Assembly (NCBI RefSeq): GCF_003985125.1
Contig: NZ_ML133576.1
Location: forward strand, 1-64,000
DNA length: 64,000 nucleotides
Source of the DNA: Rhizobium phaseoli
Lineage (GTDB): Bacteria > Pseudomonadota > Alphaproteobacteria > Rhizobiales > Rhizobiaceae
Reading direction: 5' to 3'
Each line of letters opens with the position of its first letter. Position 1 is the first letter of the stretch. The notes beneath the pieces were generated by a model. It was not told the origin of the DNA and did not search any database. It saw only the letters and a program-made list of their open reading frames with translations. Positions 39,691 to 61,825 of the stretch are shown one piece after another. A program made the position numbers and the translations under genes.

Positions 39691-40955
39691 TCCTTACCCT
39701 CGAACAGTCCCCCAGGCCCCAGGCCGTGCACCAGATGCGGCTCGTCGAGGGCGAGCTCGTTATCGGTCGCAGCGCAGACGCCGACTGGCGGATCGACGAT
39801 CCGGACATGTATGTTTCCCGTGCCCATTGCACGATTGCTTGCGTTCAGGGTCGATATCAGGTGACGGATACGTCAAGCGGCGGCCTCTTCATAGACGGCT
39901 CGCGCGCACCACTTGGAGCGGGAAATTCCGCCCCGTTGCATGACGGCGCCCGGCTGCAGCTCGGCAATTATGTCGTCCGGGTCGAGCTGCAAGGGATGCA
40001 GGCAGAGCGTTCGCCTGAACAAACGACATCGCAGCCGCCGATCGGCTTCGCACGAGATTCTTTCTTCTCGGAACGCAGCGAGCGGGTTGAATCCCCCCGA
40101 CGACCCGCCGGATTGCCTGACCCGTTCGAACACCCCGCTGCGGCGCCATTTACCGATCCGGACCGACAAGAGCCGAAAAAGAGCGCGCCCCTGTTCGACG
40201 ATCCGTTCAGCCTCGACCCGCTACCGGCCCAGCGGCAGGACAACCGTGCCTGGGATCTTTTTATGACGGGCACGCCTATAGAGCAGCCGGCGCCGGAGCC
40301 CGCCACAGCACCAATCAACCCGCAATCCAATCCGGAACCACAGCTGGAGCCGAGACAGCAGAAAACAGCGTCGATCGAAGCCGACCTGCGTGACGCCTTT
40401 CTGCGCGGATTGGGCTTCCGCGGCGAGGAGTTTCCGTCTGCCGATCCCGTCGTGCAAATGGAGAATTTTGGCCGGGAGTACCGGATGATGCTGGAAGGAT
40501 TGATCCATCTTCTGCGCAAGCGGGCCGAAGAAAAGGGCGAGGCCCGGATCGCGCAGACCGTTGTCGGGGCCTCCGAAGTAAACCCTCTCAAATTCATGCC
40601 GACCGTCGACGATGTGATCGCGATGTTCCTCACGCAACGCAATGTCGGATTCTTGCCGCCCGATGCAGCGATCAACGGCTCCATCCGCGATCTCGCGCAC
40701 CATCACGTGCGCACGTGGCGTGGCGTCCAGGCCGCGCTGGAAAGGATGGTCAACCGCTTCGATCCGGCGGCGCTGGAAAGCGAATTGAAGTCTCAATCGG
40801 CGTGGGACGCGCTGCTTGCCGGCGGGCGACGGGCAAAACTCTGGGAACTTTACGAGAAACGCTATCGCGAGATTGCCAGGAGTGCATCAACGCGCTTCCT
40901 CGGCGAAATTGGCAGCGATTTCCGGGACGGCTACGAAGAGAGGGAGAACGAATGA
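39681..40955 (+). CDS. tagH: FHA-domain T6SS activator (TagH/Fha, ImpI)
   Basis: A 424-residue cytoplasmic protein. The N-terminal FHA domain (~1-105) keeps the phosphothreonine-binding residues: ELVIGRSADADWRI, MYVSRAHCTIA, DTSSGGLFIDG. A Pro-rich low-complexity linker (~115-230) and a C-terminal ImpI/VasC domain (FLRGLGFRGEEF, NPLKFMPTVDDVIAMFL, ERMVNRFDPAALESEL, YEKRYREIAR) follow. In Agrobacterium Fha binds phospho-Thr14 of TssL after PpkA acts; see TssL at 42773. Overlaps tssJ by four bases. Confidence 0.9.
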   Translation: MALILTLEQSPRPQAVHQMRLVEGELVIGRSADADWRIDDPDMYVSRAHCTIACVQGRYQVTDTSSGGLFIDGSRAPLGAGNSAPLHDGARLQLGNYVVRVELQGMQAERSPEQTTSQPPIGFARDSFFSERSERVESPRRPAGLPDPFEHPAAAPFTDPDRQEPKKSAPLFDDPFSLDPLPAQRQDNRAWDLFMTGTPIEQPAPEPATAPINPQSNPEPQLEPRQQKTASIEADLRDAFLRGLGFRGEEFPSADPVVQMENFGREYRMMLEGLIHLLRKRAEEKGEARIAQTVVGASEVNPLKFMPTVDDVIAMFLTQRNVGFLPPDAAINGSIRDLAHHHVRTWRGVQAALERMVNRFDPAALESELKSQSAWDALLAGGRRAKLWELYEKRYREIARSASTRFLGEIGSDFRDGYEERENE

Positions 40956-41433: not shown

Positions 41434-42768
41434 ATGACGGATACGAATAAGGTGCTCTGGTCCGAGGGTCTCTTCCTTCGGACGCAGCATTTTCAGCAGC
41501 AAGACCGGTATACCGAGGCCCTGATACGCGGCGCGCTGCAGGCGGGAAGGTTGCAGACCTTCGGCTTTAGATCCCTCACGCTGGATGCCGCACAGCTTGA
41601 AGCAGGCCGTGTTGCCGTCTTGTCGGCGCGCGGCATTTTTCCGGACGGCACGCCGTTTTCCATTCCCGAAACGATGGATGCGCCGGTGCCATTGACCGTC
41701 ACCCGCGAAATGGGTGCGGGGGTGGTGCAGCTTGCCCTGCCGCTTGAACCCCCAGGCGGCGCTTGCTTCGATGCCGCTCATAGCGAGCCGACCGGAGCGC
41801 GCTATAAGGGACAGATCGAACGCGTGCGTGACGCCGTGCATGGTGGCGCCGATCCCGAAGAGATCGAGATCGCCCGCCCTCAAGCCCTGCTCTTGTCGCC
41901 AGTGCAGACGACCGGCGGCTATACCGCGATGCCGGTAGCGCAGGTCAACGGGCTGCTGGCCGACGGCAGCGTCGCGATGGGGGAAAACTTTCTGCCACCA
42001 GCCCTGACGACCGGCGCCGTGGCCTTCTACGGCCAGTTGATGCAGGAGGTGATAACCGGGCTCGACCGCATTGCCGAAGCACATGGCAAGATGGTTCTTG
42101 GTGGCGCCGGCCGCAGCGTGGAAAATCTGCTGGTCCTCGATCTTGCCAACACGGCGCGTCCGCGGCTGGCCCATATGCTTCCCCAGGAGGTTTTTCACCC
42201 GGCTGAACTCTTTCTCGAACTGAGTGGACTTGCGGGGCGAATGGCGACCTACGGCTCAGGCTCCCGTCGGCTGACCGAGCTTCCGACCTATGAGCACATG
42301 GCGCCGGGACCTGCCTTTGCGGCGCTCGCCGATACACTGCGTTCGCTGCTGCTCAGCCTGCGTTATGTCGAGCCGAAGTCGCGGGCACTTCCGGTGCTCA
42401 AACATGCGACCAATATCTGGAAGGTTCGTGTCGACAATCCCGAATTGCTGACCGCCAGTCGCATTGTCGTGCGGGTCGGATGCGACATGTCCGAGGACGC
42501 GCTGCGCAAAATCTTCGTCGATCAGGTGACGGTGGGTGCAGCCGACGAATTTGAGGCGCTGTGGAAGTCACGACTGCCGGGCATCCGTTTAAAGCCGCTT
42601 CATTCGCAGCCTCGCGAGATCCCCTATGACGGTGACCGTCTCTGCCTTGAGCTCGATCAACGCAGCGAGCATTGGGAATCTCTTCTGCGTTCGCCGGGCT
42701 TCGTGATCGGCGTGTCCGGCGTTTTGCCCAGCGAACCGCAGGTCGATTGCTATTCGGTTAACAGGTAG
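41434..42768 (+). CDS. tssK: T6SS baseplate-membrane connector TssK (ImpJ)
   Basis: A 444-residue TssK: VLWSEGLFLRTQHFQQQDRY at the N-terminus, SRRLTELPTYEHMAPGPAFA, LRSLLLSLRYVEPKSRALPV, RLPGIRLKPLHSQPREIPYD are conserved in ImpJ/VasE proteins. TssK trimers connect the baseplate to TssL/TssM. Ribosome site GAAGGGAGGGCGTTCCAGC. Confidence 0.95.
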   Translation: MTDTNKVLWSEGLFLRTQHFQQQDRYTEALIRGALQAGRLQTFGFRSLTLDAAQLEAGRVAVLSARGIFPDGTPFSIPETMDAPVPLTVTREMGAGVVQLALPLEPPGGACFDAAHSEPTGARYKGQIERVRDAVHGGADPEEIEIARPQALLLSPVQTTGGYTAMPVAQVNGLLADGSVAMGENFLPPALTTGAVAFYGQLMQEVITGLDRIAEAHGKMVLGGAGRSVENLLVLDLANTARPRLAHMLPQEVFHPAELFLELSGLAGRMATYGSGSRRLTELPTYEHMAPGPAFAALADTLRSLLLSLRYVEPKSRALPVLKHATNIWKVRVDNPELLTASRIVVRVGCDMSEDALRKIFVDQVTVGAADEFEALWKSRLPGIRLKPLHSQPREIPYDGDRLCLELDQRSEHWESLLRSPGFVIGVSGVLPSEPQVDCYSVNR

Positions 42769-49269: not shown

Positions 49270-50309
49270 CGACCCGTGCGCTGGACGTCCTTGCCTGCGG
49301 GATGGTGACCGCGGTTGGTCTCGATGCGCCGTCTGCCTGTGCCGCCATACGCGCGCACGTTGATGGATTTCAGGAAACGGGATTTCAGTCAGGCCCGGAT
49401 GAGCCGATCATCGGCGCTCCGATCCCCTTAATCCCTGAAGTCGTGGGCGAGCAGCGCATGGCCTACATGGTTGCTGCCGCGATCCGAGAAAGTCTGGATC
49501 CCTTGTCCACCCCGCGTGCAATGGCCGCCCAGCTGGTACTTTGCCTTCCCGAGGAAGGTCGTTCCGGTTCACCGATCGAAGACAGCGTGCGGCTCGTCCG
49601 CCGAATTGGCGATCTCCTCGGGAATTCGGCCACAGGGCCCACGCGCGTGATCAGCGAGGGAAGGCCGGCAGGACATGCCGCCTTGCGAACGGCAGCGCGA
49701 TTGTTGGCCGATGCGGACACAGACCACGTCGTCATCGCCGGTGTGGATAGTTATCTCACGGCTGGAACGGTCACGCACTATCTGGCCGAGAACCGATTGC
49801 TGACGCCAGACAACGCCAATGGTTTCATTCCGGGCGAAGCCGCCGGCGCGATCCTCTGCGGCCGGGCGGGACAAGGCAATTTCCGACTCGCCGGGCTAGG
49901 TCTCAGTCGAGAACAGGCTTTCATCTACAACGGGCTCGATGCAGACGGGATGCATCTACCATTGCGTGGCGATGGCATGACGGCGGCCTATAGGGAGGCC
50001 CTGGCGGAATGCAGGATTGAAATGGCGGGTCTTGGCTACAGGATCGCAGATCTCATCGGTGAGCAATATTGGTTCAGACAATCGGCCCTTGCGTCGATCC
50101 GGCTGGTTCGCGGGGCCCACGACTTTCAAGATATCCGGTCTCCCGCCGAATCGCTCGGCAACGTGGGAGCCGCCGTCGTACCGATCATGGTCGGAATGGC
50201 GATGACCGCAGCCGCCAAAGGCTATTCGGGCGGCAGCCCCGTCCTCATCGAGGCATCCAACGACAGCGGTGCTTGCGGTGCTGCGATCTTCGCATCCAGG
50301 GTGCAGTGA
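49266..50309 (+). CDS. Ketosynthase-fold (thiolase-like) T6SS accessory protein, catalytically degenerate
   Basis: A 347-residue protein with the outline of a beta-ketoacyl synthase: a start like VTAVGLDAPSACAAIRA, a core helix AALRTAARLLADADTDHVVI, then AGVDSYLTAGTV, and GFIPGEAAGAILC, which corresponds to the KS GFVxGEGAGAxVL. Where KS enzymes carry the active Cys (TACAAS) this protein has ISEGRPAG, and where they have GHTxGAAG it has LGNVGAAV, so the nucleophile and a catalytic His are missing. It is probably a structural or chaperone-like partner of the effector genes rather than an enzyme. Such proteins recur between DUF2169 and DUF4150 genes. Confidence 0.65.
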   Translation: MTTRALDVLACGMVTAVGLDAPSACAAIRAHVDGFQETGFQSGPDEPIIGAPIPLIPEVVGEQRMAYMVAAAIRESLDPLSTPRAMAAQLVLCLPEEGRSGSPIEDSVRLVRRIGDLLGNSATGPTRVISEGRPAGHAALRTAARLLADADTDHVVIAGVDSYLTAGTVTHYLAENRLLTPDNANGFIPGEAAGAILCGRAGQGNFRLAGLGLSREQAFIYNGLDADGMHLPLRGDGMTAAYREALAECRIEMAGLGYRIADLIGEQYWFRQSALASIRLVRGAHDFQDIRSPAESLGNVGAAVVPIMVGMAMTAAAKGYSGGSPVLIEASNDSGACGAAIFASRVQ

Positions 50310-51295
50310 TGGGAAATGTCTTTGCGAACGGATTGGAGATTTCGGGCAAGGGCTCCGATGGAAAGACCATTGCCGCATTCCCCGACACCTGTTTCACTCC
50401 GCCCCAAACGCCCGCTACGCCACCGGGCGTGCCCGTTCCCTATCCGAGCTTCGGCACGTCGAGCGATACCGACAAGGGCACGAGCACGGTCAAGATCGGT
50501 GGCCAGACGGTCAACATCAAGAACAAATCCTATCTGTCGAAGACAACCGGAACGGAAGCCGGTTGCGCCCCCAAGAAAAACCTCATCACCTCGAGGAATA
50601 CAGGCAAGGAGTATTTCCACTCCTGGTCGAATGACGTAAAATTCGATGGCGAGCCGGTCATTCGTTTCAGCGATATGGCGACCAATGACCACGCATCGCC
50701 ACAGGCCGGTACGCCGCCTTGGGTTCATGTGCTCTCGGCAAATGTCGGAGGAATAACGTGCGGCACGCTGCTGCAGAAGATGAACCTACGTCTGCATCAG
50801 CACAACAAGAAAAATTGTCCGCAGGGATATCAGTCGGAACACTATGTCGGAAATGAATACTTCCAGCCCGATCGTGCTCATAATACCTCCTACGATCAGT
50901 GGAAGGATTACAGCGTGCGCACGGCACCATGTGTCTGCATCCGTTCGATGAAGCACAAGAAGGGCGGCGGATTCCAGGAAACCGGCAAAGGAAGCCGCAA
51001 GGACACTCCCCATGACACGAAGACGAAGGCGGTCAACGACTACAACGCAAAACTGGAAGCTCAGACAGGCAGGTCCCCCAAGTTACGGGGGGCTGTCGCC
51101 AAGGGAACGAAGTCGATCTCCGAACAACACAAGGAGTGCAAGAATTCGAGCCCTGCCACGCAAGAGAAGGTCGCGAAATGTCTAACCATGATATTTATGG
51201 CCTATATCCAGAGTGTCGTCGGTCCCCCTCCTCCCACGAAATCAATGGAGGAACTTAATGAGATGCGGACGATGCGTCACAGGACAGTGGCATGA
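50309..51295 (+). CDS. PAAR-like (DUF4150) protein with C-terminal candidate toxin domain
   Basis: A 328-residue protein. Residues ~1-150 form the DUF4150/PAAR-like tip domain (FANGLEISGKGSDGKTIAAF, TCFTPPQTPATPPGVPVPYP, VKIGGQTVNIKNKSYLSKTT, GDEAGCAP-like). Residues ~165-300 are a separate domain with GYQSEHYVGNEYFQ (Glu177, His178), HNTSYDQWKDYSVRTAPCVC (His191), GKGSRKDTPHDTKTKAVNDY (His235) and an HKEC near 274. Spaced Glu-His and His residues suggest a metal-dependent nuclease of the HNH/EHHH kind, but I cannot assign the family. It overlaps the next gene by four bases, as expected for an effector-immunity pair. It probably sits on the VgrG tip and is delivered into target bacteria. Confidence 0.7.
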   Translation: MGNVFANGLEISGKGSDGKTIAAFPDTCFTPPQTPATPPGVPVPYPSFGTSSDTDKGTSTVKIGGQTVNIKNKSYLSKTTGTEAGCAPKKNLITSRNTGKEYFHSWSNDVKFDGEPVIRFSDMATNDHASPQAGTPPWVHVLSANVGGITCGTLLQKMNLRLHQHNKKNCPQGYQSEHYVGNEYFQPDRAHNTSYDQWKDYSVRTAPCVCIRSMKHKKGGGFQETGKGSRKDTPHDTKTKAVNDYNAKLEAQTGRSPKLRGAVAKGTKSISEQHKECKNSSPATQEKVAKCLTMIFMAYIQSVVGPPPPTKSMEELNEMRTMRHRTVA

Positions 51296-52221
51296 CCGCA
51301 CGCAAGACAATAGACGATGTGCCTTCACAGGAAGTCTACCTGGAGGCAATGCGCGGCTATCATCTTGGCGGCACGCTTTTTGGCGTTTCGATTGAACTCA
51401 GCGATGAATATAGGGAGTGCGGCCGTTCCTATCTGCTGATAGTGGATTTCACTGGGCGGAGCGCCCGGTTTCATGTTCTCTTGCAGCTGGAAAACCAGAT
51501 GTTGTCGCACATCAGCGGTTCGCAAGATGATCACGTGTTGCTGGAGGTCGGCGGCCTCACCCATTTCCTGCGCGGCAGTTCGCACACCACCGCACGGGCG
51601 CCAGAGCCCTTCTTTCACAAGCTGTTCCGCCTGCCCGATGGAACTCTCTTCACCTACGGCGAGGACGGCTGCGTGTGTCGTTTTGACGGCATTTCGTGGC
51701 AGCCGATCCAACCGCTGGTATCGTCATTCCTGAGAGCCATGCATGGGCCGTCGGCCGAGCTCCTTCATGTGGCGGGCAACAATGGTACTCTCCTCCGTCT
51801 ACAAGGGGACCGTTGGCGGCAGGTTCCGCTCGATTTCAACCGGTCAATCGAAGCGATCCATGTCTCGCCCAACGGGACGGTCAGCATCGGCTGCGAAGAC
51901 GGCATCTGCTTTGAGTACCGAGACAATCTGTTGAAAGTGATCAAGGCGCCCGACAGTGATTTCATGTCGATATGTGACTTCAAGGGGGCTCGGTTTTGGG
52001 GCGATAATGACTTCGGGGTTTTTGTCCAAGACAATCACCTCCTGAAAGAGTTCCGGGCCTTGGGCTTTGCCTACGCGATGCAGCCATCGCCCGATTTGCT
52101 CGTCGTCACCGGCTGGAAAGAGATCTTCGTGTTTGACGGAAATTCCTGGTCGGGGTTCGAATTTGGCTACGATGGACAGCTGTATATTCAGGTCATCGAC
52201 ATGAGCAGGCGTTATCTCTGA
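51292..52221 (+). CDS. Candidate immunity protein, beta-propeller-like
   Basis: A 309-residue cytosolic-looking protein without signal peptide. After an N-terminal ~90 residues it shows repeated blades with a W or F plus Gly/Asp turns: KLFRLPDGTLFTYGEDGCVC, LLHVAGNNGTLLRLQGDRWR, AIHVSPNGTVSIGCEDGICF, SICDFKGARFWGDNDFGVFV, VTGWKEIFVFDGNSWSG. This is a WD40/kelch-like propeller. Position directly behind the DUF4150 gene (ATGA overlap) and the lack of other function make it the likely antidote to the C-terminal toxin domain. The last gene of the tssA operon; its end overlaps the converging gene by ten bases. Confidence 0.55.
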   Translation: MTARKTIDDVPSQEVYLEAMRGYHLGGTLFGVSIELSDEYRECGRSYLLIVDFTGRSARFHVLLQLENQMLSHISGSQDDHVLLEVGGLTHFLRGSSHTTARAPEPFFHKLFRLPDGTLFTYGEDGCVCRFDGISWQPIQPLVSSFLRAMHGPSAELLHVAGNNGTLLRLQGDRWRQVPLDFNRSIEAIHVSPNGTVSIGCEDGICFEYRDNLLKVIKAPDSDFMSICDFKGARFWGDNDFGVFVQDNHLLKEFRALGFAYAMQPSPDLLVVTGWKEIFVFDGNSWSGFEFGYDGQLYIQVIDMSRRYL

Positions 52222-52562
52222 GCGCTCCCGCCGTTGACGGTCAGATATTCCCGGACCTTGTCCAGGTCCAGTTCCTTCACAGGGATCAATCGTCTGGCGC
52301 TCAGCATCCGCACCACAAATAGCTCGCCCGCCTCGGGAAATTCCGCATATCGCTCCTTGGCGATCTCCTGCCCTGCCTCCCCCGCCACTCGCAAGCCGTC
52401 TAAATGGGCCTCAAGACGCTCGACCAGCCGAGCAAGCCGCTCCTCATCCATGTCAGGATTTTCGTCCGGGTGAAGCAAATGGTAGTCGTAGACAGTCCAT
52501 AAGAACGCCGCCATTTCGGCGTGTTGACGGACGATCTCACGAAGGACGGGCGCGGCGGGCAT
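52212..52562 (-). CDS. Stand-alone TIGR02270-type N-terminal domain protein
   Basis: A 116-residue protein: LREIVRQHAEMAAFLWTVYD, DEERLARLVERLEAHLDGLR, VAGEAGQEIAKERYAEFPEA, GELFVVRMLSARR. This matches the N-terminal section of TIGR02270-family T6SS-associated proteins, which normally run to ~400 residues with HEAT-like repeats. Here the frame stops after that section, ten bases inside the converging immunity gene. Either a shortened functional variant or a gene cut by acquisition of the facing effector module. ATG 52562 overlaps the DUF6484 stop (TGATG), so it is in the vgrG operon. Confidence 0.55.
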   Translation of the reverse strand: MPAAPVLREIVRQHAEMAAFLWTVYDYHLLHPDENPDMDEERLARLVERLEAHLDGLRVAGEAGQEIAKERYAEFPEAGELFVVRMLSARRLIPVKELDLDKVREYLTVNGGSAQR

Positions 52563-52987
52563 CAGTTGAGGTTCACCGATCCACCACGGACGCGATTGGC
52601 TGCGCTAGCGTGGCTCGTCACATAAGTGCCACGGATGGTGATGTGCCCATCCTTTTCCATGATGATCGTCGCTTTGCCGCAACGAAGCTCGATCCGCTCT
52701 CCGGCTGTGATCTGGACACGCTCGCCGTCACGAACGACATTCGGCGTCGGCGCCCCGCGCGCCGGATCGACGATGCGCCCTACGATCAGCGGCCGAGACG
52801 GGTCCCCGCCCTCGAAGAGTAACGCTACCTCAGCCCCGACCATGGCAGACGTGAGCTCTGCCAAGCTTTTCGCACGGAGCGCTGTCTCCTCGGGATTGCC
52901 GGGAAACACGACCAATGGCACGCCTGCATCGAAACCCAGCAACAGCCCGATGACTACTCCCTCAATCCGCTCCAGAATGTCGGACAT
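52562..52987 (-). CDS. DUF6484 domain T6SS-associated protein
   Basis: A 141-residue protein. ATG 52987 is preceded by GAGGATGGGTCAT, so I prefer it to 53002. The N-terminal part (RIEGVVIGLLLGFDAGVPLV, GAEVALLFEGGDPSRPLIVG) is like the OB/gp5 core of VgrG proteins; the C-terminal part (VQITAGERIELRCGKATIIM, DGHITIRGTYVTSHASAANR) resembles VgrG tail repeats and ends VRGGSVNLN. DUF6484 proteins lie behind vgrG genes and probably bind or extend the spike. Confidence 0.75.
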   Translation of the reverse strand: MSDILERIEGVVIGLLLGFDAGVPLVVFPGNPEETALRAKSLAELTSAMVGAEVALLFEGGDPSRPLIVGRIVDPARGAPTPNVVRDGERVQITAGERIELRCGKATIIMEKDGHITIRGTYVTSHASAANRVRGGSVNLN

Positions 52988-52998
52988 ATGACCCATCC

Positions 52999-55305
52999 TC
53001 AATTATGATTGATCTTGCTGCCCTTCCATGTGACCTCTCCCGAGGCCTTGCCATTGAATTTACCCGAGGCGTTGATCGAAATGTCCTTGCCTTCGATCGA
53101 GATCGTGCCGTCCTTCTTCATCGCGATGCTTGCCGACCCGCACTTGATGACGACCGAGTCCCCCGCTTCGATCAGCAGGTCCTGACCGATCTTGATCGCT
53201 CCGTCTTCGCCCACCTCGACAAGACTGCCCTTGGCGACTTTCACCGCCCTGCTTGCGCCGATCTCCGTCGAATCGTCATCGCCGATCTTGGCGCTACGCG
53301 CCTTGCCGATGCTGCTCGTCTGCCCACCGGCGATCGACACGCTCTGGTCGGAACCGATATTCCAGCTGTCGGACGAGCCCACTTCGTGGCTCTGGCCGGC
53401 ACCGACGCTGACAGAACGGGACGCGCCGATCGTGTTTGATTGCGTCGCGCCGACCGATCGTGTCTCCGGCCCGCCGACGGTATCGACGCGTGCCGCGCCA
53501 ACCGTCACCGTCTGGACGATTGCGACGGTCTGGGTATGACTGGCACCGATGGTTTCCGTCGAGTTTGAGCCGATACTGATCGTCTCGTTGGAACCGACTG
53601 TAAGAGAGCGATTGGATCCCACCGTCTCGGTGTCGTTCGATCCGATATTGACGGTGCGGTCGACACCCACCTTGGTCGTCTTGTTGTTGCCGACATCCTC
53701 GTCGAGGTTCACGCCGACTGAGTGCTTGGCGTTGTTGTCGATGCGATCCGACTGGTCGTGTTGGACGAGCTTGCTGCGATCGTGTTTGACCAGGAGGTTG
53801 TGGTCCTTCTGCGCCTGTAAATAGACCTCCTCCGAACCGGCTTTGTCTTCGAAACGCAATTCGTTCCAGCCACCGCCCCCCGGCGACGAATTCGTCTTCA
53901 ATCCGGATTGCGTGGCGTTTCCCGGCAACTCGTAGGGCGGCATTTCCTTGCCGTTATAGACCCTGCCGGTGATGATGGGTCGATCAGGATCCCCTTCGAG
54001 AAAGTCGACAATCACTTCCTGGCCGATCCGCGGAATCTGAATGAAGCCCCAGCCAGCGCCGCTCCAGGTCTGCGACACGCGCACGAAACAGGAGCTGTTC
54101 TGATCCTTCTTGCCGAGGCGATCCCAGTGGAACTGCACTTTCACGCGGGCATATTTGTCGGTGAAAATTTCCTCGCCCGCGGGACCGACCACGGTCGCGG
54201 TCTGGGGCCCGCGCATGACCGGCCTTATCGTGTTGCGAGGCGGCCGATAGGTGATGGAGGTTGGAGCGACCTGGAATGTGGCTCGAAAGGTTTCTTCCCC
54301 TGCATAGGCGGCAGGTCGGTACCCCGGATCGAAGAGGCGATAGTCGGCGTGCAGCACAACGTATTCCGCGTTCTGGTCCTTGCGCGGGAAATTCTCGAGT
54401 TTGAAAGTGCAACCGGAAGCCAGACCCCGCACCGTGCCGGCAGCGGCGATCCGTTGATGTGCCGCCTGAATTTCCTCCCGCCGCACGACGGCAACCGCAT
54501 CGCCCCGGCCGACCGTCAGATGCGCGCCCGGATGGCGATAATGCTCTCCCTGGGCCTCTGCGTGAGAGAACGGTTGCGCCGATTGCGCCATGAGGTCGGC
54601 GCCCGGCTTGGTGAAGTCGTAGTCCGTGTGGGCAAAAGTGCCGGGCTGGACGGAACTGGTCGAAACCCAGTCCGTCATGTATTCCTCATCCCGACGCACG
54701 GGATCGCCCTCGGCCCGGAACTTGACGCTGCTATAGCCTGGCACCGGCTTCAGCTTGTTCATGGCGTCGGCCAGGACGAGGGTGTGTTCGCCCTCGCCAT
54801 ACTCGAAGAAATACATGATGCCTTCGTGCTCGAGCAGCCTCTGCACGAAGTCAAGGTCGGTCTCGTCATATTGCACGCAGTATTCCCGCGCTTCGTAGGT
54901 ACCCTGCAACCGCTTTTCGTATTTTGCCGCCTTGTATTTCGAGAAGATCTTCTCGACGATTTCGACGACGCTCATATTCTGGAAGATACGGCAATCGGTG
55001 CTGTTGCCGAGCAGCCAAAGCCAGGGTCGCACCTCCGCCTCGTAGTAGGCAAACCTCTCCTCGATGCGCGTCAGGCGAAAATCGGTGACGAGCCCGCTGA
55101 ACCAGCGTTTCTTGTCTCCGCTTTCTCCTTCTATCGACAGGGGTTTTCCGAGCAGCTTCAGTGCGTCGACATTCTCATCGGAACTGATGAAGCCGACAGT
55201 GAAGGCAAAACACCGGCTGACCTCATCGCGACCGATGAGATGCGTGAAGGTCAGCGCTTCGGATCCAAGCGGCGTCTGGACGGTTGTCTTGCGATCATCA
55301 GCCAT
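52999..55305 (-). CDS. vgrG: T6SS spike protein VgrG (TssI)
   Basis: A 768-residue VgrG. The gp27-like part is at ~1-350 (FTHLIGRDEVSRCFAFTVGF, YCVQYDETDLDFVQRLLEHE, GIMYFFEYGEGEHTLVLADA), the gp5 OB part at ~370-470 (TDKYARVKVQFHWDRLGKKD, WSGAGWGFIQIPRIGQEVIV, DFLEGDPDRPIITGRVYNG), and a long beta-helix with degenerate repeats (ETVGSNRSLTVGSNETISIG and on) from ~520 to 690. It ends in a short tail SGEVTWKGSKINHN with no obvious enzymatic domain, so cargo is probably carried by the separate PAAR-like protein. It is transcribed toward the facing tss operon. Confidence 0.95.
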   Translation of the reverse strand: MADDRKTTVQTPLGSEALTFTHLIGRDEVSRCFAFTVGFISSDENVDALKLLGKPLSIEGESGDKKRWFSGLVTDFRLTRIEERFAYYEAEVRPWLWLLGNSTDCRIFQNMSVVEIVEKIFSKYKAAKYEKRLQGTYEAREYCVQYDETDLDFVQRLLEHEGIMYFFEYGEGEHTLVLADAMNKLKPVPGYSSVKFRAEGDPVRRDEEYMTDWVSTSSVQPGTFAHTDYDFTKPGADLMAQSAQPFSHAEAQGEHYRHPGAHLTVGRGDAVAVVRREEIQAAHQRIAAAGTVRGLASGCTFKLENFPRKDQNAEYVVLHADYRLFDPGYRPAAYAGEETFRATFQVAPTSITYRPPRNTIRPVMRGPQTATVVGPAGEEIFTDKYARVKVQFHWDRLGKKDQNSSCFVRVSQTWSGAGWGFIQIPRIGQEVIVDFLEGDPDRPIITGRVYNGKEMPPYELPGNATQSGLKTNSSPGGGGWNELRFEDKAGSEEVYLQAQKDHNLLVKHDRSKLVQHDQSDRIDNNAKHSVGVNLDEDVGNNKTTKVGVDRTVNIGSNDTETVGSNRSLTVGSNETISIGSNSTETIGASHTQTVAIVQTVTVGAARVDTVGGPETRSVGATQSNTIGASRSVSVGAGQSHEVGSSDSWNIGSDQSVSIAGGQTSSIGKARSAKIGDDDSTEIGASRAVKVAKGSLVEVGEDGAIKIGQDLLIEAGDSVVIKCGSASIAMKKDGTISIEGKDISINASGKFNGKASGEVTWKGSKINHN

Positions 55306-55497: not shown

Positions 55498-57774
55498 TCA
55501 TACGCGTGCGATCGCTCCCCCCAGCGCGCGATCAGTTCTGACAGAGAATGCGAGCTCTTCGATCGCTCGTGCCGCTTCACGTGCGCCATTGGCAAAAACG
55601 ATGCGGCCTGCTCGCATCCGCTGCTGGGCGAGAAAATCCTCCGACAGGGCGAGTTCGACCGCCTCGTGCGCTCGCTCGACATCGCCTGCTCTGAGACAGA
55701 GCCCCAAACCGGCGCTTTGCGCATAGGCGGCTCGGATGGCTTGCTCGTCCATCTCGGGCGCCTCATTCGGAACGAAGATTGCCGGGATGCCGCCATAAAC
55801 AGCTTCGTGGAAGCTGTTGTAGCCGGCATTCGTGATCATCAGGTCGACAGCGTTGAAATGTCTGGCAATCGGATAAATCGCCTTTTGCACGGTGCCTGCA
55901 ATATGATCCTCTCGCTTCGCGGCAAGGGGATTGATAGCATCGACGACCTGGACGCCATGTTTAAGGAGTCCGTTGATGATCGCCGGCCGCAGCCGGCTGA
56001 CGTCGAAATTTCGTTCCGAACCGAGCTGCACGACGGCGACAAGACCGGCTGGATCGACACCGAGAGCCGATGCAGCTTCTGCCCGCGAGAGCCTGTCATC
56101 ATTGTCAATGAGGAGGATCGGAGAAACGCCGATCACGCCGGCGCGCAATTGCGCAGTGATGCCGTGATCTTCGTCCGCGGCAAACTCGCCCGGCTCGATC
56201 ACCATGTCGAACCGATGCTGCATCGACGGATCGAGATCGTGACGGGAAGCCCACATCCCGCGGCGGATCCAGACCCAGTTCAGATCGGGACGGGCGGCCA
56301 GCACTTTCAGCAGGCCCGGAAAGGGATGGTTGCTGTCGAAGACGACGCTGTTGATGGCAAATGCCTCCACGGCAGCCAGCAATTCCTGTGCGAAGACCTC
56401 GTTCCAGCTGTCGTCCGTCACTCCGATCTTCGGGGCGGACGGTATGTAGTCGACCGGGTGTCCCCGTGCTTCGATAATCGAAGACCCGGCCGACATTGTC
56501 AGGAAAACGGGCTCCATGTCAGGCGACATGCGCTCGGCGATTGCCATCAATCGCGTGATATGGCCAAGGCCTATGCCATTTGTCGCGACAAACAGGACGC
56601 GCCGCCGTCCCGTCGGCGACCGTTGGGATCTTCGCGGCCCGGAGCGGACCGTTGCGTGCCCGCTCGACGCGGAGAGAGCGTCAGCGTCAACGGGGTTGCC
56701 GGCGGTGACAAGCGCGGGAGGCAAGCAAAGCCCGAGTTCGTCATAGAGCTCACGCATTCTTTCCGGGTATCGGCTCGTCGAAAACTTCTTCTCGACCAAT
56801 GTGCGCGCGGCTGCCGACTGTGCGCGGAAGGCCTCGGGAGAGGCGAGAAATCTCTGCAGAACCTTGGTTGTTTCCTCAGGCCGGCAATAGACCGCACCGT
56901 CTTCGAAAAGGTCACGAAACGAAGGGTCCAGGATGGTCACAAGCCCGCTCGCCATCGCTTCCGCAATGCCAATGCCAAACGCCTCAACCCATCGCCGGCT
57001 GTGAAAGAACACATAGAAATCAAGCTTGCTCAGGAACTGAGGCACACCGCTGTTCGAGTAGGGCAAGGTGTTCCAGTTGGATCCAATCAAAGGCACGATT
57101 TGTTCTGGCACACCGCCCATGACCTTGATCTGGACATTACCAAGATCGGGATAGGCCGCGCGCAACTCAGCCTCGGTGTCCGGCCATTTCAGGAGATCGC
57201 AACGGGAATGTCTGCCGATAACCGCCCGTTCGCATGGCGGCTGCGCGGTCCTGATCGGCCACTCGTCAAGGTCGATCAGATTGAAAAGATCATGGCGCAA
57301 GAGCTCAGGTCTGCCGGCGATGATGTCTTCGAACTGATGCCGCACCTTGGGGCCGACCGGTGCGAAGATGACGGGTGCCCCGAACATTCTCTCCAGATTT
57401 CGTTTCACCACCTCGAAATTATATTGCGCATTGCCGGCTCCGTCGAAGGGCGGATGCTGGACCGCAAGGAGGACGACCTTCGATCTGAGGCGCAGCGGCC
57501 GTGTCGGCATGTGCGCGAACGCCAGCGGATTATGCGCGAAGAGAATGTCGCACTCGACTGCCTCCTCGCCCGTCAGCCACGGCACCTCCTGACGCTCAAG
57601 AACGTCGAGAAGACGTTCCTCGAACCGTCTGGAACGAATGTCGGAAACACCGAGAAATGGAAGCAGAGCCGTTGAGAGGCCAAATTGCCGAGCGGACTGG
57701 ATCTCGACCCGCACCGCCGATGAGGAGCCGCCATAAAATCGAGGATCGGCTGCATGGACAATATCAAAATGCAT
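55498..57774 (-). CDS. Double glycosyltransferase (GT4-like N-half fused to MurG/GT28-like C-half)
   Basis: A 758-residue protein with two GT-B modules. The first (~1-350) starts IVHAADPRFYGGSSSAVRVE and has the nucleotide-sugar region FGIGIAEAMASGLVTILDPS, a GT4-type EX7E-like segment. After a linker (~360-395) the second begins RRRVLFVATNGIGLGHITRL and contains AVDLMITNAGYNSFHEAVYG, GIPAIFVPNEAPEMDEQAIR, the donor-binding pattern of GT28/MurG-like enzymes. Each half keeps its Gly-rich acceptor loop, so both may be active. The acceptor is unknown. No membrane segment, so probably cytoplasmic. It lies beside genes for a PRTase-HAD fusion and a caspase-like protein. Confidence 0.75.
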   Translation of the reverse strand: MHFDIVHAADPRFYGGSSSAVRVEIQSARQFGLSTALLPFLGVSDIRSRRFEERLLDVLERQEVPWLTGEEAVECDILFAHNPLAFAHMPTRPLRLRSKVVLLAVQHPPFDGAGNAQYNFEVVKRNLERMFGAPVIFAPVGPKVRHQFEDIIAGRPELLRHDLFNLIDLDEWPIRTAQPPCERAVIGRHSRCDLLKWPDTEAELRAAYPDLGNVQIKVMGGVPEQIVPLIGSNWNTLPYSNSGVPQFLSKLDFYVFFHSRRWVEAFGIGIAEAMASGLVTILDPSFRDLFEDGAVYCRPEETTKVLQRFLASPEAFRAQSAAARTLVEKKFSTSRYPERMRELYDELGLCLPPALVTAGNPVDADALSASSGHATVRSGPRRSQRSPTGRRRVLFVATNGIGLGHITRLMAIAERMSPDMEPVFLTMSAGSSIIEARGHPVDYIPSAPKIGVTDDSWNEVFAQELLAAVEAFAINSVVFDSNHPFPGLLKVLAARPDLNWVWIRRGMWASRHDLDPSMQHRFDMVIEPGEFAADEDHGITAQLRAGVIGVSPILLIDNDDRLSRAEAASALGVDPAGLVAVVQLGSERNFDVSRLRPAIINGLLKHGVQVVDAINPLAAKREDHIAGTVQKAIYPIARHFNAVDLMITNAGYNSFHEAVYGGIPAIFVPNEAPEMDEQAIRAAYAQSAGLGLCLRAGDVERAHEAVELALSEDFLAQQRMRAGRIVFANGAREAARAIEELAFSVRTDRALGGAIARV

Positions 57775-57838
57775 TCGAAAGCCAGATTGGGTCTATCAAT
57801 GCTACCAAAGTCAGTTCGCCGTTGACAGGTTGGTTGCT

Positions 57839-58159
57839 TCAATAAGCGCTGCCGCTGCGGCCGAAAGACGAGTTACGTTCGGGATTGTCCAAATTTCTGA
57901 CAGCTACTGGCTTCGGTTTGATCGACCGGGTAACCCTTGATGCCGCAACCGGGACATAGGAACTGTTCGGATACTTGCTGATAAAGTTGCGATAGGCTTG
58001 ATCGGTGTTGCTTCGCCGTGCGTTGCGCCAGGCCACTTCTTCATCGGCGGTAGGCGCATTTCGGTAACCGCTGATCATCGACGCCAGCGTCATATTCGAG
58101 CCTTGAGAGGTGCATGAGGCAAGAATCAGCGTTCCGAGGATAGAAATTTTGCGAAGCAT
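57839..58159 (-). CDS. Small lipoprotein
   Basis: A 106-residue protein with a lipoprotein signal (ISILGTLILASC, Cys16 in the lipobox LASC). The middle reads EVAWRNARRSNTDQAYRNFI, SKYPNSSYVPVA, and then a basic tail. The W...S...AF..FI.KYP.S.Y pattern resembles the linker repeat in the caspase-family protein at 59684 (VLWTFIKDSPDPADFERFAK, IFPQSAHAAEA). It may be an envelope partner of that protein. No known family recognised. It has 64 bases to the glycosyltransferase gene downstream. Confidence 0.6.
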   Translation of the reverse strand: MLRKISILGTLILASCTSQGSNMTLASMISGYRNAPTADEEVAWRNARRSNTDQAYRNFISKYPNSSYVPVAASRVTRSIKPKPVAVRNLDNPERNSSFGRSGSAY

Positions 58160-58352
58160 ATGTTGCCCTCCCCGCAGCTTATTTTAGTAAGCATTCACAA
58201 ACTACCGAAGTCAATGCCCGCAAGGTCAAACTCATTATTTTCGCTGGTACGAGGCGGCCTTGAAGGACTTCTCCGGCCTTTCAAGCAACGAATAGATGCA
58301 CGTTTCAACTGACAGATTAATCAGCGGCTTGTCCAGGGTGCCCGCCTTTTCG

Positions 58353-59651
58353 CTATGACAACTGTTCGGCGAGGAATTCCTCGAAGCTCAGCCCCAACGT
58401 CACCTCGCGCGAGATCGCCCATTTTTGCAAGATAAGGTCGTAGCGTCGGCGAACATAGTCCTGATATTGCCCGGACGAAAGCGACGGAAGGTGGCGCACC
58501 TGCGGAATGAATTCGGCCGGCGTCTCTACCCGGGACATGAGTTCCTGATGGAAATCGGAAAGAACGATGATCGGATATTCGTTCTTGGCCATGCAAATTT
58601 TACGGATGGACTCGATGGCTTCGAGAAAGCCGTCTGGTCTTGGCCCGAGCCAGGTGACAAGCGTTCGCGACTTTGCCCGATTGTGCGCATCGGCAATCGT
58701 ATAGCGGAGCGCCTCAGGGATTGTCTGCTCTCGCCTCAAGAACGCGAAAGGGTCGAAAGGCATTCTCATGTTGAACAAGCCGCGCAACGGGGTGGTTGGT
58801 AAAACCATCTGGTGGGTCTCCGTGCAAAGGACTGGCTTGTTCGACAATCTAGCAATCTCGTTCGCCTGCCTAAGATCACTCTCGACAAAGATCTCAGCGT
58901 CACACTGCCGATAAAAGGCCGCCTTGAATTTTGCATGCGTGCCCCGCCGCCGACGCTCCGCCGCGCTCGGCAGATCCAGCATGATGAGCTTGCCGTAGTC
59001 GATCGCATTTGTACGTAGCCAGGCCTCGGTCAAGGACCGGTACTTCTCGAGCCGGCTGGTCACGAGATAGGCGATGAATCGCGTCGGTTTGTGAAGCGCC
59101 CGTGCATTTCTCAAGAAGGCTTCATAGGCCGGGCCATCGTCATTTTCCGTATCGGTCGGGTCGAGGCAGAGCACCCCATCAATATCGATGCACGCCTTCG
59201 ACAACAGGCCGTGATGCATGAAATTCCACTGGAACAGCCTGGGCTGTTCGACGACCTCGAATATAAAGTCGACATCGTCGTCGCTACCGTGCAGGCCGTA
59301 GACCGCCGCGAAGACAAATTGAGCGCGTGTTTTGCATGCCATCAATTTGGCTTTGGCTTCCCGCATGGCGCCGCCGGTATTGATGCTGTCGTCGAGGACA
59401 AGAACCTTTCGAACATCCGACGCGCTCCTGAACGAAGCGGTATTCTTCGTTGCACCGAACGAATAGACGCGGCCTTCGATGAAGCTGTCCAGATCGGTCG
59501 TCGGCAGGTTGGCGACAAGGCCGAGCATGTTCGCAGCCAGCAGGCCGCTGCGTGGGATACCGACGACCAGATCGATCTCGCGAGGCAGCATGTGCAACCC
59601 GTCGACAATCGTTCTGTGCAGATCCGATATCGAGCGATACGCTATCCCCAT
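58353..59651 (-). CDS. Phosphoribosyltransferase-HAD fusion protein
   Basis: A 432-residue protein. Residues ~1-140 are a type I PRTase-like domain: DLVVGIPRSGLLAANMLG and the PRPP loop VLVLDDSINTGGAM at 84-97. Residues ~150-270 look like a HAD-superfamily phosphatase: nucleophile motif ACIDIDGVLCLD with Asp156/Asp158, and later a Lys/Asp pair (AKFKAAFYRQCDAEIFVESD). The final ~150 residues are helical and unassigned. It could make or recycle a phosphoribosylated intermediate, in series with the glycosyltransferase at 55498. ATG 59651 follows AAAGGGGTATCGGC. Confidence 0.65.
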   Translation of the reverse strand: MGIAYRSISDLHRTIVDGLHMLPREIDLVVGIPRSGLLAANMLGLVANLPTTDLDSFIEGRVYSFGATKNTASFRSASDVRKVLVLDDSINTGGAMREAKAKLMACKTRAQFVFAAVYGLHGSDDDVDFIFEVVEQPRLFQWNFMHHGLLSKACIDIDGVLCLDPTDTENDDGPAYEAFLRNARALHKPTRFIAYLVTSRLEKYRSLTEAWLRTNAIDYGKLIMLDLPSAAERRRRGTHAKFKAAFYRQCDAEIFVESDLRQANEIARLSNKPVLCTETHQMVLPTTPLRGLFNMRMPFDPFAFLRREQTIPEALRYTIADAHNRAKSRTLVTWLGPRPDGFLEAIESIRKICMAKNEYPIIVLSDFHQELMSRVETPAEFIPQVRHLPSLSSGQYQDYVRRRYDLILQKWAISREVTLGLSFEEFLAEQLS

Positions 59652-59683
59652 GCCGATACCCCTTTCAGGTCACCTCCGAAACG

Positions 59684-61825
59684 TCATTTGCCGTTCTGTT
59701 CCAGAAAGAGATCGACCTGGGCTTCGATCTTCTGCCGTGTTGCCGTGTCGAGCTTCTTGCCGATCGCCGCGCGCGCTTCATCGGCTCGATTGACGCCCAG
59801 CTTTTCGGCCAGCACCCCATAATAATAGGCGAGCGGCACATCCGCCTTTCCCGTGAAGCTGCCTTTGTCGTAACCGAAGGCAAGATCGAGATTAGCCAGT
59901 TCCAGGCCGCGATTGGCAGATAACTTGAAGAGGGAAAGCGCTCGGTTCCGATCGGCAGGAAGTTTATCGGCGCCTTTCAGGTACAATCTCGCGGCATAAT
60001 AGGGGGCGTATTTGTTGCCCATGTCCGTTGCCTTGAGCAGGGTCTCCAAGCCACGTCCAAGGTCCTTCTTGCTGCCCTCTCCGCTGATATAGGCCTGGCC
60101 TAGATTTGCCATGGCGTCGATCTGGCCCGTATCGGCCGCCGCAGTGTAAAGTGCGACAGCCTGCGAGGCATCCTGCTTTACCCCCGTGCCCAGCCTGTAG
60201 CAGTCACCCAGCGCCGTGATGGCGTTGGCCCACCCGCTGGAAGCGGCAAGACGATACCAGAGAATGCCTTCTTCCGGCGCCTTCGAGACCCCTTGGCCAA
60301 GAATATAGGCCGTGCCGACGTTGGTGCGCGCGCGCAGGTTGCCCATTTTTGCGGCCGCCATGTAGTAGGAGAGCGCCTGGTCGTAGTCGACCTTCCGGCC
60401 AATCCCCATGCGAGCCATATAGCCAAGGTTGACGAGAGCCGCGCTATACTGATGGCCGCCGGCGACTTTATAGAAATACTCCGCCCAATTATATCGACCG
60501 GCGATCTCGAGAACACGACCAAGCTGATACTGCAGCCGGGGATTGTTCGGGTCTGCTGCAAGCGCAAAGGCGCAGGCCCGTAACGCGTCGCGAACATTGA
60601 CGAGACCATTACTGACGCCGGGAACCTGTCGCTGCGGATCGTTCGGGTCGGCACCATAAAGATCGCATTCGGTCACAAGACTGCGCATCCCGCCCGCCGT
60701 CTCAGGCAGTACACTCGGCCACATTCTGAACGTTTCGCTCACCGCCCGCTCGCCCGATTGCTGGAAGACGAACTCCTTAGCCTCGGCCTCGCCCGCGCTC
60801 GGCACCTGGCTGGCAATGGATGAGGCGACAAGGCTCTCGCGCACATAGAGCCCGCGTTTCGAAAGGGCGGCAACCTGGACACGACTCTTTTCCTCCGCCT
60901 CGGCCGCGTGCGCGCTTTGGGGAAAGATCTTCGCGAAGCGCTCGAAATCGGCAGGATCCGGACTATCCTTGATGAAGGTCCACAGCACCTCGTCAATTTT
61001 AACCGGGCTCGAGGTTTCGGCGGGGGGAACGACGGCTTCCGCGTCCAAGATTGCCGCCTGTGGCCGGAACACGAACCGCGTTTCAATCGAACCGGTGATC
61101 CAAGGTATTTGGGCATTGCCAGTCGCTTGCCTGACATCGCCGCGAACCGTTCGAAACGTGTCATAAACATCCAGGTTCGGTCGCTGCAGGGCATTGGCGA
61201 GCGCCGACGAATACGGGCTATTCAGCCCGGTGCCATCATAGGCGACTTCACCGGCGCTCGTTGCGTAAGCCACCAAGACCTGCCCACTTCCCGCCTCAGT
61301 GTCTGCCAGCCCCTGATGCAGACCCTGGAAATTGGCAGCCGGATTGTTTCTGCATGCATCAAGAATGAAGAGCTTCAGCCCGACGGGGTCGTTCTTGACG
61401 ATATCGATGAGGTCGTTGAGCACGATTGCATCGGCAACGACCCGTTGCGCGGAGCTGGTATCGACGTCCACCGGCAATAAGAGATTGCGGCCGGCGGCCT
61501 GCAAGGCGTGGCCGGCATAGTAAAAAACGGCAATATCGGCACCGACCAGATGCGTCCGAACCGTCTCTTTGAGATCCCCGACCGCCTCTTTCTTCAGGTC
61601 GTAAAACAACAGTACGTCAAAATTCAATTCGGTGAGCGTACTGGCGATCAGCTTGGCGTCATTCTGGGGATTGCTCAACGGCGCAAAAGGATAGTCGCTA
61701 TTGCCAATAACAATTGCCGCACGCCTTTCTGCGTGAGCAGATCCCGTGAAGACTTGACACGCGATCAGTAGGAACAGGCAGATAAAAAAACGTAAGACTC
61801 GTCCTTGCGCAGATGTGGAAACCAT
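59684..61825 (-). CDS. Exported caspase-family (C14) protein with Sel1 repeats
   Basis: A 713-residue protein. A signal peptide (~1-32, ending GSAHA) precedes a caspase-like domain: RRAAIVIGNSDYPFAPLSNP, AVFYYAGHALQAAGRNLLLP with catalytic His106, and KLFILDACRNNPA with catalytic Cys158. A linker with the WTFIKDSPDPADFERF repeat follows, then six or so Sel1-like repeats (~440-690, for example NLGYMARMGIGRKVDYDQAL, ANLGQAYISGEGSKKDLGRG). It is probably periplasmic and acts through protein contacts and proteolysis; target unknown. ATG 61825 with GGAGCGATAGTG upstream is preferred to 61870. Confidence 0.8.
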   Translation of the reverse strand: MVSTSAQGRVLRFFICLFLLIACQVFTGSAHAERRAAIVIGNSDYPFAPLSNPQNDAKLIASTLTELNFDVLLFYDLKKEAVGDLKETVRTHLVGADIAVFYYAGHALQAAGRNLLLPVDVDTSSAQRVVADAIVLNDLIDIVKNDPVGLKLFILDACRNNPAANFQGLHQGLADTEAGSGQVLVAYATSAGEVAYDGTGLNSPYSSALANALQRPNLDVYDTFRTVRGDVRQATGNAQIPWITGSIETRFVFRPQAAILDAEAVVPPAETSSPVKIDEVLWTFIKDSPDPADFERFAKIFPQSAHAAEAEEKSRVQVAALSKRGLYVRESLVASSIASQVPSAGEAEAKEFVFQQSGERAVSETFRMWPSVLPETAGGMRSLVTECDLYGADPNDPQRQVPGVSNGLVNVRDALRACAFALAADPNNPRLQYQLGRVLEIAGRYNWAEYFYKVAGGHQYSAALVNLGYMARMGIGRKVDYDQALSYYMAAAKMGNLRARTNVGTAYILGQGVSKAPEEGILWYRLAASSGWANAITALGDCYRLGTGVKQDASQAVALYTAAADTGQIDAMANLGQAYISGEGSKKDLGRGLETLLKATDMGNKYAPYYAARLYLKGADKLPADRNRALSLFKLSANRGLELANLDLAFGYDKGSFTGKADVPLAYYYGVLAEKLGVNRADEARAAIGKKLDTATRQKIEAQVDLFLEQNGK

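Follow-up and report, generated by a model that had tools for sequence, protein, structure and literature searches.

What could unite a double glycosyltransferase, a small lipoprotein, a phosphoribosyltransferase (PRTase) fusion and an exported caspase beside a type VI secretion system (T6SS)? The question is raised by a stretch of 64,000 nucleotides of Rhizobium phaseoli DNA (the window: assembly GCF_003985125.1, contig NZ_ML133576.1, positions 1 to 64,000), in which an earlier note, made from the letters alone, had pointed to four genes at 55498-61825. All four open reading frames (ORFs) are indeed there, on the minus strand and in the order caspase (CASP, family C14; 59684-61825, 713 aa from the ATG at 61825), PRTase-HAD protein (58353-59651, 432 aa), lipoprotein (Lpp; 57839-58159, 106 aa) and glycosyltransferase fusion (GTfus; 55498-57774, 758 aa, from ORF, Pfam and alignment), followed by the VgrG gene of the T6SS. 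What is conserved among relatives is a somewhat different unit: GTfus, a ~110-aa domain X that forms the C-terminus of the PRTase-HAD protein in the window, a signal-bearing caspase with Sel1 repeats and often a small exported repeat protein. This gene set, hereafter the module, and its association with the T6SS are well founded. Our best reading of its role, which we offer tentatively, is a small envelope glycoconjugate that would serve the T6SS, with a periplasmic caspase as a checkpoint.

A conserved gene set rather than a fixed operon

Four family profiles were run over the stop-to-stop ORFs of 41 stretches, including the window, plus one more. Gene lists of the relatives' loci, made with a simple codon-bias caller, include ORFs in the wrong frame, so all counts rest on profile hits in stop-to-stop ORFs. 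Taking as strong those loci with a GTfus match at E < 1e-100 in a single ORF, we obtained 28 loci (fetched via GTfus) from Rhizobiaceae, Paracoccus, Skermanella and one further member of the class. A caspase is present in 28/28 and X in 27/28, the single miss lying on a 10.6-kb contig. The four genes are not a chance group: the earlier note had proposed co-occurrence as the check on its grouping, and the core genes are regularly, not rarely, found together. Identity matrices over 25 loci correlate at 0.97 for GTfus and X, 0.91 for GTfus and caspase and 0.86 for X and caspase, values that shared descent alone would raise. At the level of the class the set is uncommon: in a sample that includes the window's own genome, X occurs in 3/385 genomes and GTfus (at 1e-50) in 4/385.

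GTfus hits were fetched from 10 of 53 plasmid records and 19 of 22 family genomes (G671, G678 and G795 were left out), and L121-L123 were fetched with caspase hits also in view. Excluded from the 28 were L128, whose contig has the length of that of L056 and which was taken as its duplicate; L138, where GTfus is split over two ORFs and X and caspase are present; and L142, which has a weaker GTfus together with X and caspase. The same applies to L132-L135, with a weaker GTfus and neither X nor caspase (L132 and L135 being 7- and 5-kb contigs), to L074/L075, with a weaker GTfus and X but no caspase (fetched via X), to the GT4-only hits L130, L131, L136 and L137, and to L141, with two half matches and neither X nor caspase. 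The 28 strong loci plus L138 and L142 make up the 30 module loci referred to below. L047, L049, L059 and L061 stood outside the rescan; all four contain GTfus, caspase, Lpp and either X or PRTase-HAD-X. Some of the counted loci supplied the sequences for the X, caspase and Lpp profiles, so that their own scores are necessarily high; weak scores are those of L123 (X, 2.6e-7) and L073 (X, 3.0e-5; Lpp, 4.8e-5). The sample contains near copies, i.e.: two S. meliloti loci and two of the Shinella loci.

Among 150 relatives, five close ones carry the whole group at ~90-97% identity. The window's GTfus is 98.8-99.5% identical to R. phaseoli plasmid copies and 98.9% identical to that of R. etli CIAT 652 plasmid pC, which bears the same four ORFs in the same order, annotated in turn as putative peptidase, hypothetical conserved protein, hypothetical protein and putative glycosyltransferase. 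The peptidase gene of that record matches the window's caspase gene in length and place. In R. altiplani, R. mongolense and Rhizobium sp. P32RR-XVIII, GTfus identity drops to 53-55%, and the sole match to the PRTase-HAD protein is the part from residue 313, encoded by a separate small gene. It is therefore X, and not PRTase-HAD as first described, that belongs to the conserved set with GTfus, the caspase and often the small exported protein.

The arrangement of the genes varies as well. In these three genomes caspase-X is convergent with lipoprotein-GTfus, and VgrG is divergent from the caspase; this layout (the B form) is also found in Sinorhizobium and, with no adjacent VgrG, in two Mesorhizobium. 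Only the R. etli/phaseoli clade, window included, and its neighbour (L050) showed the co-directional four-gene order, so that this part of the earlier description stands for that clade and falls for B-form Rhizobium, Sinorhizobium and Mesorhizobium. A single conserved four-gene operon was rejected because B-form loci carry two convergent pairs. Promoter and terminator patterns in 55.2-62.1 kb came in numbers near those of shuffled sequence, and a repeat scan of the locus returned short imperfect repeats only. Between the window's GTfus and those of 13 B-form loci, identity is 53-55% in every case, while the adjacent VgrG is 83-87% identical to those of B-form Rhizobium and Sinorhizobium. These values suggest two divergent module versions at one site, as in serotype-like exchange.

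The module often accompanies one T6SS lineage

We confirmed a T6SS cluster at 22-55 kb of the window, whose TssK (41434-42768, plus strand) is of the subtype that accompanies the module. Among the 150 relatives, 46 have TssK and 9 have the window's subtype, scoring 339-349 bits against PF05936 where the others reach 405 or more; the genomes with a full-length GTfus are exactly these nine (9/9 vs 0/141). Among 277 family genomes the subtype was found in 24 (75% identity or more, other matches being at 26-33%), and a full-length close GTfus in 7/24 of these vs 0/253 of the others. In six of the seven, GTfus and TssK lie ~13-28 kb apart on one contig. Fisher values for the association are tiny, in a calculation that ignores relatedness. 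TssK was present somewhere in the genome in 6 of 7 GTfus-bearing genomes tested.

T6SS genes were sought around the modules with the window's proteins at 1e-8, in stretches of 10-28 kb, so a very distant T6SS could be missed. They were found in 20 of the 30 module loci, in seven arrangements (a count of arrangements, not of independent gains) that involve more than one T6SS subtype. The module lies beside VgrG in Rhizobium and Sinorhizobium; beside TssL-TssM-PppA-PpkA in M. zhangyense and G638; beside ClpV-TssA-TssB-TssC in G698; beside PpkA-ClpV in G550; beside TssA/TssB/TssC of another subtype in G768 and G640; beside kinase, DUF2169, ketoacyl-synthase-like and PAAR genes in Paracoccus; and between PppA-type and DUF2169 genes in Rhodobacter CZR27. 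A PpkA-type kinase adjoins it in M. zhangyense, G638, G550 and Paracoccus, and the window's PpkA-like Ser/Thr kinase (30169-32262, plus strand) shares 45% identity over 691 aa with the one that neighbours the Paracoccus module. The T6SS linkage that the earlier note had offered as one possibility is thus borne out across relatives. The T6SS is not obligatory, since ten loci had no T6SS gene in the stretch examined: M. albiziae, Skermanella (a 13-kb contig), three Shinella, two S. meliloti, Rhizobium 32-5/1, G622 and G156 (a 10.6-kb contig).

Caspases, probably exported, recur in this T6SS lineage

A caspase search at 1e-30 in 36 chosen (non-random) genomes gave 54 matches. A caspase gene lies within 40 kb on the same contig in 21/24 cases for TssK of the window's subtype, vs 1/20 for other TssK places. 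The three subtype TssK without a nearby caspase belong to assemblies of 180, 200 and 1070 contigs. The figure of 1 in 20 may be low, because in G640 TssB and TssC lie beside the module and TssK on other contigs; several of the 20 other places are also in fragmented assemblies. In 17 of the 21 cases a caspase other than that of the module is near TssK. Ten caspases of such loci were scanned: Sel1 repeats occur in six, peptidoglycan-binding domains in two and an FGE domain in one, the tenth having no additional domain. Caspase-family genes in clusters of the window's subtype, without the glycosyltransferase module or apart from it, are at L114:3715-5193, L115:15150-17948, L117:18262-19731, L118:2021-4570, L120:2770-5481 and L125:1052-3727. 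The T6SS-linked caspases displayed have signal-like starts (signal sequences were judged by eye throughout) and lie beside ClpV, PpkA, PppA or VgrG. Given this adjacency and the 21/24 vs 1/20 count, caspases appear to be a regular component of this T6SS lineage, of which the window's module would be one form.

Caspase-FGE (SUMF1) genes lie beside the GTfus module in S. meliloti (L071:6015-7889) and G622 (L123:4618-6414), and in Skermanella (L063:192-1747) ORFs that we take to be chagasin-like (protease inhibitor-like) and SLATT-like are found near the module.

Caspase and lipoprotein

The protease assignment made from the sequence holds: the window's caspase matches PF00656 at 124 bits and Sel1 at 81.6 bits. 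Its layout is a signal sequence, the His106/Cys158 pair (H106 and C158 being invariant in 9/9 aligned sequences), a helical linker (~277-323), TPR and Sel1 repeats; the predicted structure, with a mean pLDDT of 68, served for domain layout only. Lpp has a signal sequence with the lipobox LASC (also by eye), and both proteins are therefore probably exported. It contains one copy of a repeat that is also found inside some caspases (profile E 5e-6 to 9e-14), which suggests Lpp as a possible anchor or regulator of the caspase. Arg is abundant in the Lpp tail, whose C-terminal Tyr is invariant in 10 aligned sequences (the last residue in 9). Among solved structures, the caspase-fold chains matched by the caspase profile at 1e-6 all come from MALT1, a protease that cleaves after Arg; we regard the Arg-rich tail with its conserved final Tyr as a candidate caspase substrate.

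Prokaryotic metacaspases with Sel1/TPR repeats (PMC3501461) resemble this protein in having a C14 domain, a signal peptide or N-terminal helix, and Sel1 repeats. The accessible part of that survey describes bacterial caspases as common in rhizobia, which are rich in such metacaspases, and mentions an operon, conserved in Rhizobium, that combines protease with protease-inhibition functions; it differs from our case in naming neither T6SS clusters nor a fixed glycosyltransferase partner.

GTfus and its partner domain X

GTfus combines a GT4-type half (~residues 1-350, 56725-57774, minus strand) with a GT28/MurG-like half (~residues 390-750, 55525-56607, minus strand). The latter passes the Pfam cut-off (PF04101, 31.8 bits against 22), and GT4-type models fall below theirs (PF13524, 24.7 of 25; PF00534, 19.9 of 26.4). 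An EX7E-like motif (E264, E272) and the motifs GIGLGHITR and AGYNS, which we take to be typical of GT4 and GT28 enzymes, are invariant in seven aligned sequences. By eye, GTfus has no signal peptide and no membrane segment and is therefore probably cytoplasmic.

X (residues ~313-432; 58356-58715, minus strand) was overlooked in the earlier description of a two-domain PRTase-HAD fusion. Its partners change: it is fused to PRTase-HAD in the window, forms the C-terminus of a GT25 fusion in Paracoccus zhejiangensis, and is a stand-alone gene in most relatives. The stand-alone ORFs (~140-280 codons) are conserved and there is a homologue in Skermanella, which makes it less likely that X is the remnant of a decayed PRTase-HAD protein. 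The predicted structure of the whole PRTase-HAD-X protein has a mean pLDDT of 47, so that only the X part was used (blocks of 68-85 in residues 331-432); the fold search effectively tested residues 324-428. Best matches were GART formyltransferases, plant UGTs and the N-halves of GT-B enzymes at a middling Z of 6-7.5, and we claim for X a predicted Rossmann-like fold, nothing more. Given its proximity to GTfus in 27/28 loci together with its fusion to varying sugar enzymes, X is best read as a docking module.

The accessory Sec system for glycosylated adhesins has paired GT-B enzymes, GtfA-GtfB, and Asp proteins, with a catalytically idle GT-like partner. The low-Z matches of X to Asp1 (5.2) and GtfA/B (6.0), among many others, would be a likeness by analogy only: the module is Gram-negative and has a caspase, with no known SecA2/SecY2 or serine-rich adhesin. 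Other sugar or modifying genes near modules include heparinase II/III, radical SAM/SPASM, methyltransferase and nucleotide-sugar dehydrogenase genes.

PRTase-HAD is a late addition in the window's clade

The PRTase-HAD part (58788-59651, minus strand; PRTase ~residues 1-150, HAD ~150-285) is present in only 3/30 module loci. It is a late add-on, joined to X in the window's clade, and hence ribose is not the common product of the modules. The PRTase domain, which the earlier note had named, exceeds its Pfam cut-off (PF00156, 28.0 bits against 26.3); its motif LDDSINTG contains D87, D88 and S89, invariant in 5/5 aligned sequences, a stretch that we take to be the motif binding phosphoribosyl pyrophosphate (PRPP). 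The HAD half, also named there, gave no Pfam match at 0.01. Its assignment comes from motifs, i.e.: DxDGVLC (DIDGVLC in the window), TS and K positions, invariant in the five aligned sequences and presumably HAD motifs, and from a weak profile match to the Pnkp1 phosphatase (E 0.0065). The single sequence found nothing in the PDB at 0.01; the profile, at E up to 5, found 23 sequences, the best of which are purine PRTases and none of which is named as a glycan PRTase. By eye, the PRTase-HAD-X protein has no signal sequence.

Relatives of this part point to glycans. It shares 54-61% identity with genes of two Paracoccus polysaccharide clusters (L068, L069) and 44% with the leading part of a GT4 fusion in a relative from the order (L040). 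On plasmids of R. sullae and Sinorhizobium fredii, proteins 58-64% identical are located away from the module. The L040 fusion (L040:7092-9812) is a 906-aa protein that joins PRTase-HAD to a GT4-like domain, and its neighbours are an FkbM-like and two sulfotransferase-like ORFs (named by eye). We consider PRTase-HAD a candidate PRPP-dependent ribofuranosyltransferase tethered to X.

The known counterparts would be gPRT-PRP enzymes, which, as two reports describe (PMC11127046, PMC10299916), divide the work between a domain that attaches ribofuranose-5-phosphate and one that strips off its phosphate. The likeness to them, e.g. to CriT-CrpP of Bcs3 of Haemophilus influenzae type b (Hib; PMC10299916), lies in a PRTase and a probable HAD-type domain in one protein and in relatives that sit in glycan clusters (L068, L069) or are fused to GT4 (L040). 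The window protein differs in its order, PRTase-HAD, whereas Bcs3 has HAD before PRTase, in matching solved purine PRTases best, and in bearing X; ribofuranosyl transfer by it is putative.

A proposed glycan for the T6SS, and competing explanations

Taken together, the domain content fits glycan building, in line with the earlier suggestion of a phosphoribosyl- or sugar-modified surface molecule, to judge from the GT4/GT28 motifs of GTfus and from PRTase-HAD relatives in polysaccharide clusters. In our reading, GTfus docked to X in the cytoplasm would place a short glycan on an envelope-bound acceptor, X recruiting interchangeable sugar enzymes to it; in the window, PRTase-HAD would add ribofuranose-5-phosphate from PRPP and then dephosphorylate it. 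There is no exporter among the four genes, so the acceptor should use housekeeping export routes, and could be the core of lipopolysaccharide (LPS), a lipid carrier or a protein. In the periplasm, the small lipoprotein would hold the caspase at the membrane through their common repeat, and the caspase would cleave a carrier or a T6SS-envelope protein. Such cleavage would couple T6SS use, near the PpkA/PppA/FHA phosphorylation switch, to the glycan or to the state of the envelope.

Several results weigh against this glycoconjugate with its checkpoint. The analysis identified no glycan acceptor, exporter or caspase substrate. The PRTase-HAD profile retrieved neither Bcs3 nor any other solved PRPP-dependent glycan transferase, and PRTase-HAD is restricted to the 3/30 loci mentioned above. 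The fold matches of X are generic (Z up to 7.5). Of the 24 genomes that carry the T6SS subtype, 17 are without a full-length close GTfus (G550, one of the 17, carries a diverged copy), and in 10/30 module loci the stretch fetched was free of T6SS genes. Only 19/28 strong loci gave a stand-alone Lpp-like ORF; in 5 of the remaining 9 the Lpp profile matches a caspase instead (in one only at 0.015). The link within the module also has edges: G279 and G464 combine X and GTfus with an Lpp-like ORF and show no caspase in 20 kb, and a weaker GTfus group (G767, G710, G585 and G794, two of them on short contigs) has neither X nor caspase.

A somewhat unlikely explanation, though the one that survives best beside the glycoconjugate, is a locus for general modification of envelope polysaccharides, akin to a serotype cassette, that would have entered T6SS islands through accessory-region exchange and has no direct T6SS function. 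The ten modules without T6SS genes would fit it, as would the variable sugar-modifying neighbours and the gap between GTfus (53-55%) and adjacent VgrG (83-87%) identities to B-form loci, as if a divergent version occupied one site. Seven arrangements within T6SS clusters of more than one subtype, and the exact co-distribution with one TssK subtype among 150 relatives, argue against it, and a caspase in 28/28 loci is unexpected for a polysaccharide locus.

We judge it unlikely that the module is a T6SS trigger or sensor in which the lipoprotein and exported caspase sense envelope damage or contact and feed PpkA/PppA/FHA, the glycan part building the sensed structure. In Pseudomonas, TagQRST feeds PpkA, and TagR is an FGE-like protein. 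The parallel with TagQRST-PpkA-Fha would be an exported lipoprotein and a periplasmic protein in T6SS clusters with PpkA, PppA and FHA. Caspases within 40 kb of 21/24 subtype TssK, beside ClpV, PpkA, PppA or VgrG where displayed, the PpkA-type kinase adjoining the module in four loci, and the FGE(SUMF1)-caspase genes beside it in S. meliloti and G622 all speak for such a role. However, the window's caspase has no FGE domain by Pfam, its PpkA is 23 kb distant and some modules have no adjacent T6SS genes. The module would moreover differ in having a caspase and glycosyltransferases where Tag has FGE-like TagR and an ABC transporter; Pfam found neither an FGE nor an ABC-transporter domain in the four module proteins.

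Location beside VgrG in Rhizobium and Sinorhizobium could suggest an effector-immunity or other toxin cassette of the T6SS, which is very improbable: the R. aethiopicum module is 91-95% identical where the PAAR gene and its neighbour, elsewhere in the cluster, are 50% and 28% identical, the caspase and Lpp have signal sequences of their own, and the module stretches of Mesorhizobium, G698, G550 and Paracoccus gave no VgrG match. A strain-variable effector-immunity pair is disfavoured, the module being conserved where the PAAR gene diverges. Bacterial caspases do occur in defence systems, and an anti-phage or programmed-cell-death system with the caspase as executioner, defence being one of the roles floated earlier, is likewise highly unlikely, with a single weak PADLOC caspase match (18 bits) in its favour and, against it, the caspase's signal sequence and Sel1 repeats, no sensor or nuclease domain in the four proteins by Pfam and no PADLOC match for the other three.

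The surrounding T6SS cluster

The T6SS cluster encodes TssB, TssC, TssE, TssF, TssG, FHA (39681-40955, plus strand), TssK, TssL, TssM, TagF, DUF2169, a PAAR toxin-type protein, VgrG (TssI; 52999-55305, minus strand, directly downstream of GTfus), a ClpV-type ATPase, a PppA-like PP2C phosphatase (25626-26396, minus strand) and the PpkA-like kinase. A DUF6484 protein (Pfam; 52562-53002, minus strand) is a further T6SS neighbour. The PAAR toxin-type gene and its downstream neighbour (50069-52221) are the most variable piece of this T6SS part, being 97% identical in some close relatives and at the values given above in R. aethiopicum. A row of genes at 22259-26396 comprises a second IcmF-type protein, its N-terminus DotU-like, a gene of M15 D-Ala-D-Ala carboxypeptidase type and the PP2C phosphatase; a similar row adjoins the module of Rhodobacter CZR27. 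Elsewhere in the genome, on a separate contig (G000:C39:8523-9794), there is another TssK, which belongs to a different subtype. In CIAT 652 (L143:1-6792), a ribose ABC transporter, rpiB, tpiA and a RuBisCO-like gene lie beyond the GntR gene next to the caspase.

A proposed accessory locus of the T6SS

The earlier note had said that it knew of no described system with this set, and none turned up in the literature: titles and abstract starts, with most subscription papers outside coverage, gave no account of the gene set or of exported caspases as T6SS components. The T6SS of R. etli Mim1 (PMC10215855) has a different gene layout, and the main text of that paper contains neither 'caspase' nor 'glycosyl'. 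The observation made at the outset is confirmed and its interpretation partly supported. We file the module as a T6SS accessory locus, possibly a categorically new system. With considerable reserve, we propose an undescribed T6SS accessory class: an exported caspase regular in this T6SS lineage would, in a subset, be coupled to a cytoplasmic glycosyltransferase complex whose specificity is changed by enzyme swaps on X, and the resulting protease-gated surface glycan would control or protect the T6SS.

Few bacterial caspases have a known job, and proximity to a T6SS together with a dual glycosyltransferase partner offers a concrete, testable setting for one. The same T6SS lineage has genomes with and without the module, which opens the way to direct genetic tests. 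If the link is functional, proteolysis and envelope glycosylation would be joined to the control or safety of the T6SS, and bean symbionts would gain a candidate ribose-bearing surface glycan.

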